A DNA stretch of 64,000 nt from Niveispirillum cyanobacteriorum (GTDB taxonomy: Bacteria > Pseudomonadota > Alphaproteobacteria > Azospirillales > Azospirillaceae). Below, in pieces: positions 12,801-21,026 of the stretch. The DNA lies in NCBI RefSeq assembly GCF_002868735.1, contig NZ_CP025611.1, positions 1,730,501 through 1,794,500 of the forward strand, in the 5' to 3' direction. How positions within the stretch are numbered: the stretch's first letter is position 1; each line of letters starts with the position of its first letter. A program made the position numbers and the translations under genes. The notes beneath the pieces were generated by a model. That model worked only from the letters and a program-made list of their open reading frames with translations. It made no database searches and was not told the DNA's origin.

Positions 12801-13067
12801 TCAATAGTGCTTGCGGCAAGACAAAACCTCTATCCGCTGATCCGGGCCGGCACCAGCTACCTGATACACGAGGCGGTGCTCCTGGGTGATCCGGCGGGAC
12901 CAAAAGCCGCTCAGCGGACCCTTCAATGGCTCAGGCTTGCCGATACCGGTGAAGGGCGTGCGCCGGGCGCTTTGCAGCAAATCGTTGATACGCCCAACAA
13001 TCTCCGGGTGCTGGGCCTGCCATGCCAGATAGTCGTCCCAAGCCGCCTCAGAAAAGACGACCTTCAT
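12801..13067 (-). CDS. yoeB: YoeB-type mRNA interferase toxin
   Basis: RelE-superfamily endoribonuclease that cleaves mRNA in the ribosomal A site and is neutralised by the upstream antitoxin. 88 residues; the residues needed for catalysis in E. coli YoeB are all present: Glu46, Arg65 and the C-terminal His-Tyr (87-88, in SCRKHY). The LSGFWSRRITQEHRLVY core is typical. The ATG overlaps the antitoxin stop as ATGA, so translation is coupled and the antitoxin is made first. Intact and probably functional. Base composition is somewhat lower in GC than the flanking genes, consistent with mobile toxin-antitoxin modules. Confidence 0.95.
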   Translation of the reverse strand: MKVVFSEAAWDDYLAWQAQHPEIVGRINDLLQSARRTPFTGIGKPEPLKGPLSGFWSRRITQEHRLVYQVAGAGPDQRIEVLSCRKHY

Positions 13068-13315
13068 TCAGGCGGGTTCCATTCAACGATCCGGCCCGCA
13101 TCCAATTGTTCCATGGATCGCCGCAGATGTTCCGCGTTCGCGGGTGAACTGAGCAGGTGAACCGTCTCCTGCCACCCCTCGAACTCACTCATGGACATTA
13201 AAATCACATCCTCGGCACCTTGGCGCGTCACCACGACAGGCGTTCGATCCTGTGTAACCTTGTCCATAAGGCCCGCCAAATTCTGTCGGGCTGTGCTGTA
13301 ATTCACCACATCCAT
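13064..13315 (-). CDS. yefM: YefM/Phd-family antitoxin
   Basis: 83-residue antitoxin of the YefM/Phd fold. It starts MDVVNYSTARQNLAGLMDKV, the DNA-binding N-terminal half typical of the family, followed by the PVVVTRQGAEDVILMS core and a C-terminal tail that would wrap the toxin. In the known family the antitoxin dimer, with toxin as co-repressor, binds its own promoter. A perfect inverted repeat about 25 bases upstream of the start is the likely operator. A longer in-frame reading would run back into the neighbouring hydantoinase gene and is not credible. Confidence 0.93.
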   Translation of the reverse strand: MDVVNYSTARQNLAGLMDKVTQDRTPVVVTRQGAEDVILMSMSEFEGWQETVHLLSSPANAEHLRRSMEQLDAGRIVEWNPPE

Positions 13316-13376: not shown

Positions 13377-16300
13377 TTATGCCCCATAGCCCCCGCCGCC
13401 CGGCGTCTCGATGACGAATACGTCCTCGGCCCCCATCTCCGCCTTTGCGGTGGCGGACAGGACCTCCACCCTGCCGTCCGCCCGTTCCACCCGCGCACCT
13501 CCCGGCAAGGCGTCACCACCGCCCGCCGCGCCATAGGGCCGGATGCGGCGGTTGTTGGACAGGATGGCGGCGGTCATCGGCTCCAGGAAGCGGATGCGAC
13601 GTTCCACGCCCTCCCCGCCCTTCCAGCGGCCCTGCCCGCCCGAACCGCTGCGCAGGCGGAAACTGTCCAGCATCACGGGGAAGCGCCATTCCAGCACCTC
13701 CGGATCAGTCAGGCGGCTGTTGGTCATGTGGGTATGCACCCCGTCCGTCCCGTTAAAACCGGGACCGGCGCCCGATCCGCCGCAAATCGTCTCGTAATAC
13801 TGGTACGTCGCATTGCCGAAGGTGAAGTTGTTCATGGTCCCCTGGGCCGCCGCCAGAACGCCCAGCGCCCCGTAAAGGGCGTTGGTCACGGCCTGGCTGA
13901 CCTCCACATTGCCGGCCACCACGGCGGCGGGATAGCGTGGGTTCAGCATGCTGCCTTCGGGGATGATGATCTCCAGCGGCTGTAAGCAGCCATCATTCAA
14001 CGGGATGTCATCATCCACCAGGGTGCGGAAGACATAGAGAACGGCAGCGCGCACGATGGCCGAGGGTGCATTGAAGTTGCCCGGCTGCTGTGGGGATGTG
14101 CCGGTGAAATCGATCCGCGCCGACCGGGCCGCACGGTCGATGGAAACGGCCACGCGCACATGCGCCCCACTATCCATTTCGAGATCGAAATGACCATCCT
14201 TCAGGACGCCGATCACCCGGCGCACTTGCTCCTCGGCATTGCGCTGAACATGGCACATGTAGGAGGTTACCGTTTCGATACCGAAAAGATCGACCATCTT
14301 CATCAACTCATCCCGCCCGCGCGCATTGGCGGCGATCTGGGCACGCAGGTCGCCCAGATTCTGTTCGATGTTGCGGGCGGGATAGGGACTGCTGGTCAGC
14401 AGGTCCACCACCTCGCGTTCGAGAAGAGCGCCATCGCGGACCAACAGGAAATTATCGATCAGGATGCCTTCCTGATCGATATGGGTGCTGTCGGGCGGCA
14501 TGGAACCCGGCGTGATGCCGCCAATATCGGCCTGATGCCCCCGGCTGGCCACCCAGAACAGGATGTCCGTGCCGGCCTGATCAAAGACCGGCGTCACCAC
14601 GGTCACGTCGGGTAGATGCGTGCCGCCGCGATAGGGGTTGTTCAGCATGACGGCATCGCCAGGACGCAGACTGTCGCGCCTAGCATTGATCACGGTGCGC
14701 ACGCTGTCGCCCATGGAGCCCAGATGCACCGGGATATGCGGGGCGTTGGCGATCAGGTTGCCGCCCGCATCGAACAGGGCGCAGGAAAAATCCAGCCGTT
14801 CCTTGATATTCACGGAATGGGCCGTGTTCTCCAGCGCCAGACCCATCTGTTCGGCGATGGACATGAACAGGTTGTTGAACACTTCCAGCATCACGGGATC
14901 GGCATCGGTGCCCACGGCCACACGGGCCGGCAGCGGCACCACCCGGCGCAGGATCAGGCCGCCGCGCGCCGTCACCCGCGCCTGCCAGCCGGGTTCGACC
15001 AGCGTGGTTCCCGTCGCCTCCGTCAGGATGGCGGGGCCGTCAATGGCAACACCGGGGGCCAGGGCGTCGCGGTCATGGATGGCGACCGCCCGCTCCACCC
15101 CGTCCATCCAGACGGGCACGGTAGCGCGCGGCGACGGGGCGGCCACGCTCTCCGGCTCGGCCATCACGGCGTCCGACAATTGCTCCCCACTGGCCGCCAC
15201 CGCTTCGGCCGACAGGCTTTCCACCACCAGCGGGCGGTGGGGTACGTCAAAGCCGAAGCGCTGCCGATGTTCGGCCGCAAAGGCGGCGCGCATCGCCCCC
15301 TCATCCCCGAATGGCACTTCCAGCGTCGCATCGGTGCCCGCCACCTTGATGCGGGCCGTATGGATCAAGCGGATGCCGGCATCGGTCACCCCCTGTTCGC
15401 GCAGTTCCGCCGCCGCATCGGCGCCCAGCGCATCCAGCACCGATGACAGTTCAGCCATCGCATCCGGCCCCAGCGTCCGTTCCACCGACCGGTCGCGCAA
15501 GGCCCCCAGGTCGGCTAGCCCCATGCCATAGGCCGACAGCACGCCCGCAAACGGGTGCAGATAGACGCTGGTCATGCCCAGCGCGTCGGCCACCAGACAG
15601 GCATGCTGTCCACCCGCCCCGCCGAAACAGTTCAGGGCATAACGGGTGACGTCATAGCCGCGCTGGACCGAGATGTGCTTGATGGCGTTCGCCATGTTTT
15701 CAACGGCGATCTTCAGGAAGCCCTCGGCCAGTGCCTCTGCCCCCATGGCCCGGCCCGTGGCCGCCGAAACCTCTGCCGCCATGGCCGCGAACTTGGCCCG
15801 CACCACATCGGCGTCCAGCTTCTGGTTCCCGTTGGGACCGAAGACGGCGGGGAAGAAATCGGGATGCAGCTTGCCGACCATGACATTGCAGTCGGTGACC
15901 GTCAGCGGCCCACCCCGGCGATAGGCGGCGGGACCCGGATTGGAGCCCGCCGATTCCGGCCCCACCCGCAGCCGCGCGCCATCGAACCGGCAGATGGATC
16001 CACCACCCGCCGCCACCGTGTGGATACGCAGCATCGGCACGCGCAGACGCACACCCGCCACCACGGTCTCAAGGCTGCGTTCATAGGTGCCGGCATAGTG
16101 GGAGACGTCGGTGCTGGTACCGCCCATGTCAAAGCCGATGATACGGTCCAGCCCTTCTGCGGCGGCCGTCCGCACCGCACCGACAATCCCGCCGGCGGGA
16201 CCCGACAGAATGGCGTCGCGGCCCTGGAACCGTGCCGCCTCCGTCAGGCCGCCATTGGACTGCATGAAATAGAGCGGAATGCCGGGCAGGGCATCGGCCA

Positions 16301-16979
16301 CCTGCGCCACATAGCGGCGCAGGATGGGCGACAGATAGGCATCGGCCACGGTCGTATCGCCGCGCCCCACCAGTTTCATCAAGGGACTGACCTGATGGCT
16401 GGCCGAGACCTGCGTAAACCCGATCTCCCGCGCCAGATCGGCCACCGCCGCCTCGTGTGCGGGATAGCGGTAGCCGTGCATGAAGATGATGGCGCAGGCG
16501 CGGTAGCCAGCGTCGAATGCCGCCTGCAAGCCCGTGCGCGCGGCCCCCATGTCCAGGGGGCGGCGCACGGTGCCATCGGCCATCACGCGTTCCGGCACCT
16601 CCACCACGCTGGTGTAAAGCTGTTCCGGCAGTTCGATCCGGCGTGCAAAAATCTTGGGCCGCGCCTGATAGCCGATGCGCAATTGATCACCCAGGCCGGC
16701 CGTGATGACCAGCAGCGTCTTCTCCCCTTTGCGTTCCAGCAGGGCGTTGGTGGCAACCGTCGTGCCCATGCGCACCGCCTCCACCGCGTCCGCCGGCACG
16801 GGTTCCCCCGGCGCCACGCCCAGCAGGTCGCGGATGCCCTGCACCGCCGCATCGCGGTAGCGTTCGGGATTTTCCGACAGAAGCTTGTGGGTCAGCAGGC
16901 GGCCATCCGGTCGGCGGGCCACAATGTCGGTGAAGGTGCCGCCCCGGTCGATCCAGAATTGCCAACGCCCGCCCGTCAT
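13377..16979 (-). CDS. Fused HyuA-HyuB protein (5-oxoprolinase / N-methylhydantoinase type)
   Basis: A 1200-residue fusion of the two hydantoinase/oxoprolinase subunits: HyuA-like ATPase (about 1-680, starting with the phosphate-binding [10 protein letters not shown] at about 9-18 and a second [11 protein letters not shown] loop) and HyuB-like part (about 685-1200, with [14 protein letters not shown] and the GGTHLPD region). Such fusions open cyclic amides such as 5-oxo-proline or hydantoins at the cost of ATP in the cytoplasm. The full length matches eukaryotic-type 5-oxoprolinases, but the substrate cannot be fixed from sequence. It is divergent from the LytTR/amidohydrolase operon and lies immediately upstream of the yefM-yoeB operator on the same strand. 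Confidence 0.9.
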
Positions 16980-17148: not shown

Positions 17149-17976
17149 ATGAAAAGCCCACCCAGTATTCTCGGCATGGTGTTGATGTGGTTGATCATAT
17201 CGATCGCCCTCACCATCATGGGGCCGTTCGGAACGATCCGCATTCCGCTCCAGGAACGCCTGCCCTACTGGCTGGGGCTGATGGCGGTCAGTTGCCTGAA
17301 ATGGTGGGTCTGGTTCCGGCTTACCGGTCCGCTGGTGGGCTGGCGGGAACGCCATATGGCACTGATGGGTGTTCTGTCGGTGTTCATTCTGCACCTGACC
17401 CTGCCGTTCGAGGTGCAGGTGGCCAACGGGTTCGTTGGCGGCCCGGCGCCGGCCTATCTTCCGCTTTATGGTACGGCGGTGGCCCTTGGTCTGATCATCT
17501 GTGCCGGTATCGAGGCTGCCCGCTGGGGCATGCGCCGCCATCAGATGACCGGCACGTCCGAGATGGCGGCGGTTGTAACCCCCGCAGCGGCGGACATGGC
17601 AGTGACAGCACCGGCTCTGCCCATCGATCCACCCAGTGGCGGTCTGCTGTTGCGGGCCGGGGTGAGCGACCCGGCACAGGTGATGGCAGTGGAGGCAGAG
17701 GATCATTACCTGCGCCTGCATCTGAGCGATGGGCGAAAACCGCTAGTCCTGTACCGGCTGCGCGACGCGATGGCCGAGCTGTCACATCTCGACGGGGAGC
17801 AGGTGCATCGTGGCTACTGGGTGGCGGGACAGGCCGTGCGCGGCCTGGAACGGCGGGACGGGCGCAAATGGGCGCTGCGGCTGGAGGGCGGTCTGTTGGT
17901 CCCCGTCAGCGCCACCTTCATGCCGATGGTGCGCAAACGCGGCTGGCCGGAATTGACCCCGGCCCTGGAACGCTGA
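17149..17976 (+). CDS. Membrane-anchored LytTR-domain transcription regulator
   Basis: A 275-residue protein with about four hydrophobic segments in the first 130 residues and a LytTR DNA-binding domain at about 180-270 (VMAVEAEDHYLRLHL, then VHRGYWV). There is no receiver domain, so it would sense through its membrane part or a partner rather than by phosphorylation. The ATG at MKSPPSILGM was chosen because the upstream extension is hydrophilic and unlike the family. The next gene starts 21 bases downstream on the same strand, so it is probably the regulator of the exported-hydrolase operon behind it. The signal is unknown. Confidence 0.85.
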   Translation: MKSPPSILGMVLMWLIISIALTIMGPFGTIRIPLQERLPYWLGLMAVSCLKWWVWFRLTGPLVGWRERHMALMGVLSVFILHLTLPFEVQVANGFVGGPAPAYLPLYGTAVALGLIICAGIEAARWGMRRHQMTGTSEMAAVVTPAAADMAVTAPALPIDPPSGGLLLRAGVSDPAQVMAVEAEDHYLRLHLSDGRKPLVLYRLRDAMAELSHLDGEQVHRGYWVAGQAVRGLERRDGRKWALRLEGGLLVPVSATFMPMVRKRGWPELTPALER

Positions 17977-17997
17977 ACAGAGAAGGGAAACGGGGGC

Positions 17998-19428
17998 ATG
18001 AAGGGATTTCACGGAACCGTGCGGCCAGGAATGACCCGCACGGCCCTCGGCCTGCTGCTGCTGACGGCGTCACTTATATCCCCCGCCCTGGCCCATGCCC
18101 CGCCGGGTGCCATGGAGCGGCCCTTTGCCCCGGCGGAGAAGGGCGCGCGGGTGATCTATGCCGGGGTCACCCTGATCGATGGGCGCGGTGGTCCGGCACA
18201 GCCCGGCATGGCGGTGATCACGGAAGGGGAGCGGATCGCCAACGTCCTGCCCCTGGCGCAACTGGACGCGGCCAGCCGCACGGGCGCCACCCTGATCGAC
18301 CTGACCGGCCAATACCTGATCCCCGGCCTGATCGACAGCCATCAGCATATGGCGACACCGCCCAACCGGGTGCAGGCAGAAGCACAGATGCGCCGCGACG
18401 TGTTTGGCGGCGTCACCGCCGTGCGTGACATGGCCGACGACCTGCGCGCCATCAATGAATATGCCCGCGCCGCGCGCGTGGGCGAGGTGCCGGGGCCGGA
18501 CATCTGGGCCGCCGCCCTGTTCGCGGGTCCCGATTTCTTCGATGATCCGCGCACGGCAGCGGCAGCAGAGGGGGTGAAGCCCGGCGCCGTGCCCTGGATG
18601 CGCGCCGTCGATGACACCACCAACCTGTCCGAAGCCGTCACCCTGGCGCGCGGCACGTCCGCCATCGCGGTCAAGCTGTATGATAATCTGCGGCCACAGG
18701 ATGTCCGCGCCATTACCGCGGAGGCGCACCGCCAGGGCCTGCGCGTCTGGGCCCATGGCATGGTGTTTCCCACCCCGCCCGCCGATGTCGTGGCCGCCGG
18801 CGTCGACAGCATTTCCCACACCTGCTACCTCGCCTACCACATCTCCAACCCCCGCCCCCTGACCTACAAGGACCGGCGCCTGGTGGAGATCGACCGGCTG
18901 AAGGGTGGCGATAATCCGGAGATGGCGGCCCTGTTCAAGGATATGGCCAAGCGGGGCATCATCCTGGACGCCACCCTGCGCGTTTATCAGGAATATGATA
19001 AGCGGCTGACCGCCAAGCCCGACATGAAGCCCCGACCCCATTGTACCCTGGACGTGGCGGCGGCCCTGACGGCGCAGGCCCGGCGCGAAGGCGTCACCAT
19101 CGTCACCGGCACCGATGGCGTGCCGCCTGCCGCCCATCCCTGGCCCGCGCTCTATGACGAACTGACCCTGCTGCACAGCCGCGCGGGCATGAGCACGGCG
19201 GAAGTCATCCGCGCCGCCACGCTGGACGGTGCCCGCGTCCTGGGGCAGGAGGCAGAAATGGGCAGCGTAGAGGCCGGCAAGCTTGCCAATTTTGTGGTGC
19301 TGGCCCGCGACCCGCTGGCCGACCTGGGCAACCTGACATCCATACGTTTTACGGTGAAGCGCGGCACCCGCCTTGACCGCACCGCCTATCGCCCCATCAC
19401 CGCACAGGAGATGCCCCAGGATGACTGA
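17998..19428 (+). CDS. Exported amidohydrolase-family protein
   Basis: A 476-residue metal-dependent hydrolase with a signal peptide (basic start, then GLLLLTASLISPALAHA ending near residue 34), so it probably acts in the periplasm. The amidohydrolase metal site is visible: His115 and His117 in LIDSHQHMA, probable carboxylated Lys226 in AVKLYDN, His253, His274 and Asp373 in GTDGVPP. It resembles the imidazolonepropionase/prolidase-like branch that acts on amide or cyclic amide bonds; the substrate is unknown. The gene overlaps the next one by eight bases. An internal ATG at residue 12 would still keep the signal peptide. Confidence 0.85.
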   Translation: MKGFHGTVRPGMTRTALGLLLLTASLISPALAHAPPGAMERPFAPAEKGARVIYAGVTLIDGRGGPAQPGMAVITEGERIANVLPLAQLDAASRTGATLIDLTGQYLIPGLIDSHQHMATPPNRVQAEAQMRRDVFGGVTAVRDMADDLRAINEYARAARVGEVPGPDIWAAALFAGPDFFDDPRTAAAAEGVKPGAVPWMRAVDDTTNLSEAVTLARGTSAIAVKLYDNLRPQDVRAITAEAHRQGLRVWAHGMVFPTPPADVVAAGVDSISHTCYLAYHISNPRPLTYKDRRLVEIDRLKGGDNPEMAALFKDMAKRGIILDATLRVYQEYDKRLTAKPDMKPRPHCTLDVAAALTAQARREGVTIVTGTDGVPPAAHPWPALYDELTLLHSRAGMSTAEVIRAATLDGARVLGQEAEMGSVEAGKLANFVVLARDPLADLGNLTSIRFTVKRGTRLDRTAYRPITAQEMPQDD

Positions 19429-20578
19429 GATTGCCCGCCGCCATCTACTGCTGACCGGGGCTGCGGCGGCCCTGCTGCCAGCTGCGGTACAGGCCGCCAC
19501 CACCATCCCCGGCCCCACGGGTGCCACCAGCATCCGCGACATGCTGGTCATCAATGCCCTGGGCGGCCTGGGCAATCCCAATGTGAAGCCGGCGGACGGG
19601 GCGTCGCGGGCAGAAAAGCTACGTATCGATCAGCGCGCCCTGGACGATGCCCGCCGGTCGGGCCTGCATGTGGTCAACAGCACCATCGGCTGGGTCGCAG
19701 GACCGGAGGAGCCGTTTGAGTTCAGCGTGCGGGAGACAGCCTCCACCCTGCTGCAAATCCGCAATCAGCCGCGCGATCTGACCCTGATCCTGACAGCGGG
19801 CGACATTGAGCGTGCGCGGGCCGAGGGCAAAATCGGCATCATCATGGGCTTCCAGAACGCCGCCATGTTCGGCAAGGATGCCTCACGCGTCGATCTCTTC
19901 GCCGATATGGGCGTGCGGGTCATGCAACTGACCTACAATGTCCAGAATGACCTGGGTTCCGGCAGCCTGATGCCAGAAGACCAGGGCCTGACCAATTTCG
20001 GGCGGGAGGTGATGGCCCGGATCGAGGCCAACAAGGTCATGGTCGACCTGTCCCATTCCAACCGCCAGACCTGTCTGGACGCGATTAAGGCGGCGACCCG
20101 GCCCCTGTCGATCAACCATACCGGTTGCCGCGCCATCACCGATCTGGCCCGTAATAAGACGGACGCCGAAATGCGCGGCGTGGCTGACAAGGGCGGCTTT
20201 GTCGGCATCTATTTCATGCCCTTCCTGGCCAAGGGCCGCGTCGCCACCGCCGATGATGTGGCCACCCATATCCTGCATGCGGTCAAGGTGGCGGGGGAGG
20301 ACCATGTCGGCATCGGCACCGATGGCTATGTCACCTCCTATGACGATATGGATGCGTACATGGAGGAGCTGCGCAAAGAGAATGAGCAGCGGGTGAAGCT
20401 GGGCATTGCGGCGGCGGGCGAAAGTGCCACCACCACCCCCTTCATCATGGATCTGCGTGGACCGGGCCAGTTTCAGAAGCTGGCCGACCTGCTGTTGGCC
20501 AAGGGGCTGAAGACCGGACAGGTAGAAAAGATCCTGGGCCGGAATTTCCTGCGCTTTGCGCGCGATGTCTGGGGCTAA
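19421..20578 (+). CDS. Exported M19 (renal dipeptidase)-like protein with altered metal site
   Basis: 385 residues beginning MTEIARRHLLL, a twin-arginine-like exported leader. The body follows the M19 fold: VDLSHS (His212), SINHTG (His233) and HVGIGTDG (Asp301) are conserved. The first metal motif, normally Asp-Gly-His-x-Asp near residue 45, is replaced here by INALGGLG, and the bridging Glu of the EG motif is Gln145 (IMGFQNA). So it may bind one metal or none, or have a different activity from canonical dipeptidases. Translationally coupled to the amidohydrolase, and followed by the RidA-like gene. Whether it hydrolyses dipeptides is open. Confidence 0.8.
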   Translation: MTEIARRHLLLTGAAAALLPAAVQAATTIPGPTGATSIRDMLVINALGGLGNPNVKPADGASRAEKLRIDQRALDDARRSGLHVVNSTIGWVAGPEEPFEFSVRETASTLLQIRNQPRDLTLILTAGDIERARAEGKIGIIMGFQNAAMFGKDASRVDLFADMGVRVMQLTYNVQNDLGSGSLMPEDQGLTNFGREVMARIEANKVMVDLSHSNRQTCLDAIKAATRPLSINHTGCRAITDLARNKTDAEMRGVADKGGFVGIYFMPFLAKGRVATADDVATHILHAVKVAGEDHVGIGTDGYVTSYDDMDAYMEELRKENEQRVKLGIAAAGESATTTPFIMDLRGPGQFQKLADLLLAKGLKTGQVEKILGRNFLRFARDVWG

Positions 20579-20591
20579 AGGGGGAATGACG

Positions 20592-21026
20592 ATGATGAGG
20601 CATACACTTGTCGCCGGCCTGATGCTGGCCGGGCTGTCCACGGCACCGGCCCTGGCCGATGATATGGTCTTCCACAAATCCTTTCCCGGCGCCCCCTTCT
20701 CCGAATCGGTGGAGGTGGATGGGGTGCTTTACCTGTCGGGACAATTGGGCACCGATGCCAATCTGAAACTGCCCGACGGCATGGCGGCGCAGGGTCGGCA
20801 GGTGATGGAGAATATCAAGGCCGCCGTGGAAAATCGCGGCCTGACCATGGACCATGTCTTCAAATGCACCGTCATGATGGCGGACATGAAGCAGTGGGGC
20901 GACTTCAACAAGATCTACATCACCTATTTCAAGCCCGACCGCCTGCCCGCCCGCTCCGCCTTCGGCACCAACGGACTGGCCCTGGGTGCCCTGCTGGAGG
21001 TGGAGTGTCTGGCGAAGATGCGGTGA
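20592..21026 (+). CDS. Exported RidA/YjgF-family protein
   Basis: RidA proteins deaminate reactive enamine/imine intermediates and are normally cytosolic. This 144-residue version carries an N-terminal signal peptide (MMRHTLVAGLMLAGLSTAPALA), after which the RidA fold follows: GVLYLSGQLG, the conserved Arg in LPARSAFG and Glu in LEVECLA. The Arg and Glu are those needed for imine hydrolysis in active RidA members. The start behind GGGGGA was chosen over an ATG six bases earlier. Third enzyme of the exported operon, ending one base before the convergent fliJ stop. Confidence 0.85.
   Translation: MMRHTLVAGLMLAGLSTAPALADDMVFHKSFPGAPFSESVEVDGVLYLSGQLGTDANLKLPDGMAAQGRQVMENIKAAVENRGLTMDHVFKCTVMMADMKQWGDFNKIYITYFKPDRLPARSAFGTNGLALGALLEVECLAKMR

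Follow-up and report, generated by a model that had tools for sequence, protein, structure and literature searches.

What is a RidA protein with an export signal doing outside the cytoplasm? RidA is a cytosolic guard against imines arising from PLP enzymes; RidA proteins can also have other roles. In Niveispirillum cyanobacteriorum, such a gene is the last of four tightly packed genes, all on the plus strand (17149-21026), which encode a LytTR regulator, an amidohydrolase (AmH), an M19-like protein and RidA. The window is the whole stretch of 64,000 nucleotides analysed here; it is part of a 3.4 Mb replicon in a genome of 6.05 Mb, and Niveispirillum and AAP38 contigs match this region at 95-97% identity. 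The cluster and its divergent neighbour comprise the following genes.

13377-16979, minus strand: fused HyuA-HyuB protein (HyuAB) of the hydantoinase/oxoprolinase type, divergent, no export signal (Pfam).
17149-17976, plus strand: LytTR membrane regulator, at the head of the cluster here, not conserved as a partner (Pfam, neighbourhood comparison).
17998-19428, plus strand: AmH, predicted exported amidohydrolase of 476 aa with a Sec-type signal (Pfam Amidohydro_1, ligand alignment); the nearest solved sequence, a weak match, is phenylurea hydrolase B.
19421-20578, plus strand: M19-like protein of 385 aa with predicted Tat-type export and an altered metal site (Pfam Peptidase_M19, motif table, AlphaFold model and fold search).
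20586 or 20592 to 21026, plus strand: RidA-like protein with predicted Sec-type export, catalytic Arg and Glu kept (Pfam Ribonuc_L-PSP, residue table).

The compact same-strand arrangement described in the original prediction is borne out. LytTR and AmH are separated by 21 bp, the AmH and M19-like genes overlap by 8 bp (the latter starts at ATG 19421), and a gap of 7-13 bp, depending on the RidA start chosen, follows. Pfam scores are above the curated cut-offs for all four families (LytTR 39.7 bits, Amidohydro_1 75.7, Peptidase_M19 232.4, Ribonuc_L-PSP 93.5). HyuAB and LytTR are 169 bp apart. A promoter and terminator scan of the locus gave matches at chance level.

Export had been proposed for three products, and reading of the sequence and hydropathy supports this. 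The N-termini of AmH and RidA are Sec-type (LGLLLLTASLISPALA and MMRHTLVAGLMLAGLSTAPALA, respectively), and that of the M19-like protein is Tat-type (IARRHLLLTGAAAALLPAAVQA). These signals are predicted, by eye and from hydropathy; the same signals recur in homologues. The N-terminus of LytTR has three or four hydrophobic segments. The genome contains ten RidA-family genes; among the five starts read, the window copy alone has a clearly signal-like N-terminus.

Conservation of this neighbourhood varies within the genus. Eleven Niveispirillum genomes were searched, including that of the window (G000), and close M19 copies are found in four only (G000, G070, G072 and G073). All four contain an unfused AmH-M19-RidA trio, at two different loci. 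In the nearly identical genomes G000, G070 and G072 the order is HyuAB, LytTR-AmH-M19-RidA and then FliJ (split over two contigs in G072); LytTR adjoins the trio in these three only. In G073 the trio (78-87% identity) is at another site, preceded by a glycoside-hydrolase-15/phosphorylase-kinase-type gene; neither LytTR nor HyuAB is present at this locus, and HyuAB is found elsewhere in the genome. Since the order is kept in three genomes and the trio stands alone in G073, the unit that stays together is the trio. LytTR is ruled out as a module member by G073, where another type of gene precedes AmH; we propose that it regulates the cluster locally, in this lineage alone.

The trio also occurs far outside the genus. 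A contig scan with a single protein query returned five near relatives only; the wider set comes from a genome search. In G1006, which belongs to another class, AmH and M19 overlap as they do here (51% and 56% identity), and an exported RidA (53% identity) faces the pair. In 11 of the 199 genomes of G1006's family, an exported AmH carries a C-terminal RidA domain. This set consists of the G748 protein and full-length matches to it (51-67% identity); both Pfam domains were confirmed in the one fusion scanned, and all 11 fusions have a Sec-type N-terminus. A Tat-type M19 gene directly follows the fusion in four (G748, G846, G993 and G935); the remaining seven have no M19 beside them. AmH-M19 pairs without RidA are found in 12 genomes, sphingomonads among them: two Kordiimonas, G694, G1250, G1195, G1065, G1200, G1098 and G1042, two Novosphingobium plasmids and one Streptomyces plasmid, whose AmH and M19 proteins both lack export signals.

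Overall, AmH adjoins M19 in 21 genomes of two phyla, which cannot be attributed to chance. RidA is absent from most of these pairs and M19 from seven of the 11 fusions; hence the partnership is not an obligatory one. An M19 gene with no adjoining AmH is also common (a genus of the same family, g11; G227, G593 and G485; and the f183 group). In an M19 tree built by one method from few sequences, the Niveispirillum proteins group as sisters to that of G1006, which is what a transfer of the whole trio between classes would produce. The fusion-associated M19 proteins form a distant, separate branch of that same small tree; the same three families are therefore associated in two M19 lineages. The conservation on which the original prediction depends is thus found for AmH, M19 and RidA, together with signals in homologues, and not for LytTR. 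It is very probable that the three-gene module is real. Adjacency, fusion and predicted export signals identify it as a putative functional unit outside the cytoplasm, and the AmH-RidA fusion suggests that in some bacteria an unstable imine arises and is cleared there.

Several AmH or M19 loci have a neighbour of the ornithine-cyclodeaminase (OCD) family. Such a gene is found near M19 or AmH-M19 at L170 and L209 (as third gene at both) and at L203, and is divergent on the Streptomyces plasmid (L171). Close OCD copies (55-60%) are present in G1177, G1042, G1250, G694, G065 and G059 and were not found in G000, G1006 and G993; they occur in genomes without an adjacent RidA. The OCD/mu-crystallin family includes imine reductases. 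In lineages without an adjacent RidA, an enzyme of this family may handle the product instead, as judged from few loci.

Two further loci contain related genes. In G227 (L050, 4825-8877), the neighbours of a related M19 gene encode an AMP-ligase and a PLP enzyme of the threonine-dehydratase type, which would itself yield an imine. G065 (L168, 569-10742) has a second cluster in which RidA is accompanied by exported enzymes; besides an exported RidA it encodes an S9 peptidase, a further exported amidohydrolase, a double ornithine-cyclodeaminase protein and a protein of the class-V aminotransferase type.

AmH retains a complete set of metal ligands. These are H115, H117, K226, H253, H274 and D373, and the HxH, Lys, His, His and Asp set is complete in all 33 aligned AmH sequences. 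Phenylurea hydrolase B and molinate hydrolase are the best, weak, sequence relatives of solved structure; several others are carboxypeptidases or prolidases. The structure model (pLDDT 48) is too poor for fold comparison.

The M19-like protein belongs to Peptidase_M19 by sequence (232 bits against a cut-off of 26) and by fold. Its AlphaFold model (pLDDT 78, pTM 0.81) matches 2i5g best in Foldseek, followed by 3itc/1itq; 2i5g is the closest solved structure by sequence as well. PvdM, of pyoverdine maturation, was considered as a model and rejected, as 3b40 is only the tenth fold match. The binuclear site is altered: NALGG occupies the place of HxD and GFQN (Gln) the region of the bridging Glu, while two further His and an Asp are kept. 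A canonical M19 protein (L102) has THLD and Glu at the same sites. The fusion-associated branch has IDGLS in the HxD place; no M19 relative of the group has HxD, and nearly all lack the bridging Glu as well. By its ligands, the protein does not qualify as an active binuclear dipeptidase. The loss of HxD and the exchange of the bridging Glu for Gln make an ordinary dipeptidase unlikely, contrary to the protein's initial assignment as a peptidase.

RidA retains its catalytic residues. The equivalents of Arg105 and Glu120, numbered on the E. coli RidA sequence, are kept in the trio and in the 11 fused copies, and Tyr17 is replaced by Phe (the L224 row is left out of the residue table). Scores are below the TIGR00004 cut-off of 106 bits (window RidA 89, fusion 95, G1006 85), which places these proteins in a divergent Rid group. 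The window protein is a member of the Rid fold family with catalytic residues and is a predicted imine deaminase.

One alternative is periplasmic peptide scavenging, with AmH as an Xaa-Pro/Xaa-Arg exopeptidase, M19 as a dipeptidase and RidA as accessory damage control without a step in the pathway. M19 is a dipeptidase family, carboxypeptidases and prolidases are among the solved relatives of AmH, and at L168, in a same-family genome, an exported RidA lies beside the S9 peptidase and another exported amidohydrolase. The best NCBIfam match of AmH is a Caulobacter Xaa-Pro dipeptidase model, but at 93 bits against a 500-bit cut-off. Scavenging is nevertheless unlikely, given that HxD and the bridging Glu are missing from the M19-like protein and that a RidA domain fused to AmH speaks for a direct step.

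Breakdown of hydantoin, 5-oxoproline or another cyclic amide together with HyuAB, as initially suggested, is improbable. HyuAB is divergent from the cluster here, as it is in G070 and G072, and in G1177 a HyuAB homologue (two frames, about 60%) lies less than 10 kb from M19 and OCD genes. However, all 11 Niveispirillum genomes carry HyuAB, mostly elsewhere; seven of these have no trio, and in G073 the two are unlinked. Outside the nearest relatives no HyuAB lies beside a trio, pair or fusion, and none was found at 1e-100 in G1006, G485, G593, G1195 and G1065. Nor does the protein have an export signal. The match of AmH to hydantoinase models is very weak (20.5 bits, cut-off 393). HyuAB is thus rejected as a module partner because of its genus-wide presence without linkage, and the hydantoin/5-oxoproline proposal is left unsupported.

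The region around HyuAB has features of its own. A YoeB-like/YefM-like toxin-antitoxin pair (12801-13315, minus strand) separates HyuAB from RuvX. In the close relative G070 the latter two genes are just about 26 bp apart; the pair was therefore inserted recently here or lost there. A second HyuAB homologue (34%; G000:C2:327558-331205) contains two in-frame TGA codons, alike in nine Niveispirillum genomes, and most likely consists of adjacent genes joined by the search.

Detoxification or use of xenobiotics or natural products through urea, carbamate or anilide hydrolysis would suit the phenylurea and molinate hydrolases as best solved relatives of AmH, the patchy distribution and the plasmid location, but the similarity is weak, RidA is uncalled for with such substrates, and this explanation is highly doubtful.

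We favour a module in which AmH would free an imine or enamine outside the cytoplasm, RidA would hydrolyse the imine and the M19-like protein would act on the same compound; its chances are about even. The imine chemistry itself is likewise evenly poised. The substrate of AmH may be a small amide-type periplasmic compound, e.g. an N-acyl or peptidyl dehydroamino acid or other enamide. The metal-dependent AmH would cleave the amide to yield an enamine, which would tautomerise to an imine; RidA, neighbouring or fused, would hydrolyse the reactive imine, giving a keto compound and ammonia. N-acyl and peptidyl dehydroamino acids are a guess, made because RidA needs an imine and AmH belongs to an amide-cutting family. 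With its broken binuclear zinc site, the M19-like protein might take the same compound one step further, by isomerisation or mono-metal hydrolysis, or might bind it; its place in the pathway is guesswork. The M19 renal dipeptidase was originally known as dehydropeptidase. A dedicated extracytoplasmic enamine/imine pathway, in which an imine-making hydrolase is hard-wired to RidA and a zinc-less M19 protein has a new non-peptidase reaction, is possible, though somewhat less than an even prospect.

Known systems share parts of this module. With the RidA/YjgF enamine/imine deaminases (Lambrecht et al. 2012; Niehaus et al. 2015, PMC4433059), the module RidA has in common the fold family and the catalytic Arg and Glu; it differs in being exported or fused to an exported amidohydrolase and in scoring below the TIGR00004 cut-off. 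Rid proteins hydrolyse enamines and imines (Lambrecht 2012, as cited in PMC9537276). The text of the Rid family survey (PMC4433059) mentions no amidohydrolase, dipeptidase, signal or periplasm. A literature search conducted mostly outside subscription journals found no description of the module or of an exported RidA, in agreement with the original prediction. In the Pseudoalteromonas ong cluster, an N-acyl hydrolase and a RidA protein, whose role is unknown, are both essential for growth on N-acetylglucosaminate (PMC9537276). The likeness is that a single pathway combines a deacylating hydrolase with a RidA protein; in contrast to the module, the OngB hydrolase and OngC deaminase are cytoplasmic, the deaminase is a separate enzyme and the gene set is different.

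The M19 dipeptidases DPEP1 (1itq) and Sco3058 (3id7) share the fold of the M19-like protein; their binuclear zinc ligands, HxD and Glu, are absent from it. Closer are 2i5g and the pepD of dgcAB operons in Pseudomonas and Vibrio, which belong to the same wider M19 branch (about 31-39% identity) and have likewise lost HxD and have Gln for the bridging Glu. In contrast to the module protein, this 2i5g-like branch has no Tat signal, and its context is glyA-M19-DUF5943-dgcA-dgcB-etf; no dgcA, dgcB or etf neighbours are found near the trio, which is thus not part of a dgc operon. The dimethylglycine-operon pepD is a predicted dipeptidase with no assigned role (PMC12093977). Two copies examined here (L172, 7031-8002; L174, 6950-7921) are annotated as dipeptidase and lack the zinc ligands.

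If the proposed chemistry is correct, reactive enamines and imines would also be made and handled outside the cytoplasm. The AmH-RidA fusion offers a single purifiable protein for finding the substrate. The module may also provide a handle on a large M19 branch, including the dimethylglycine-operon pepD, which is annotated as dipeptidase though its zinc site is gone.
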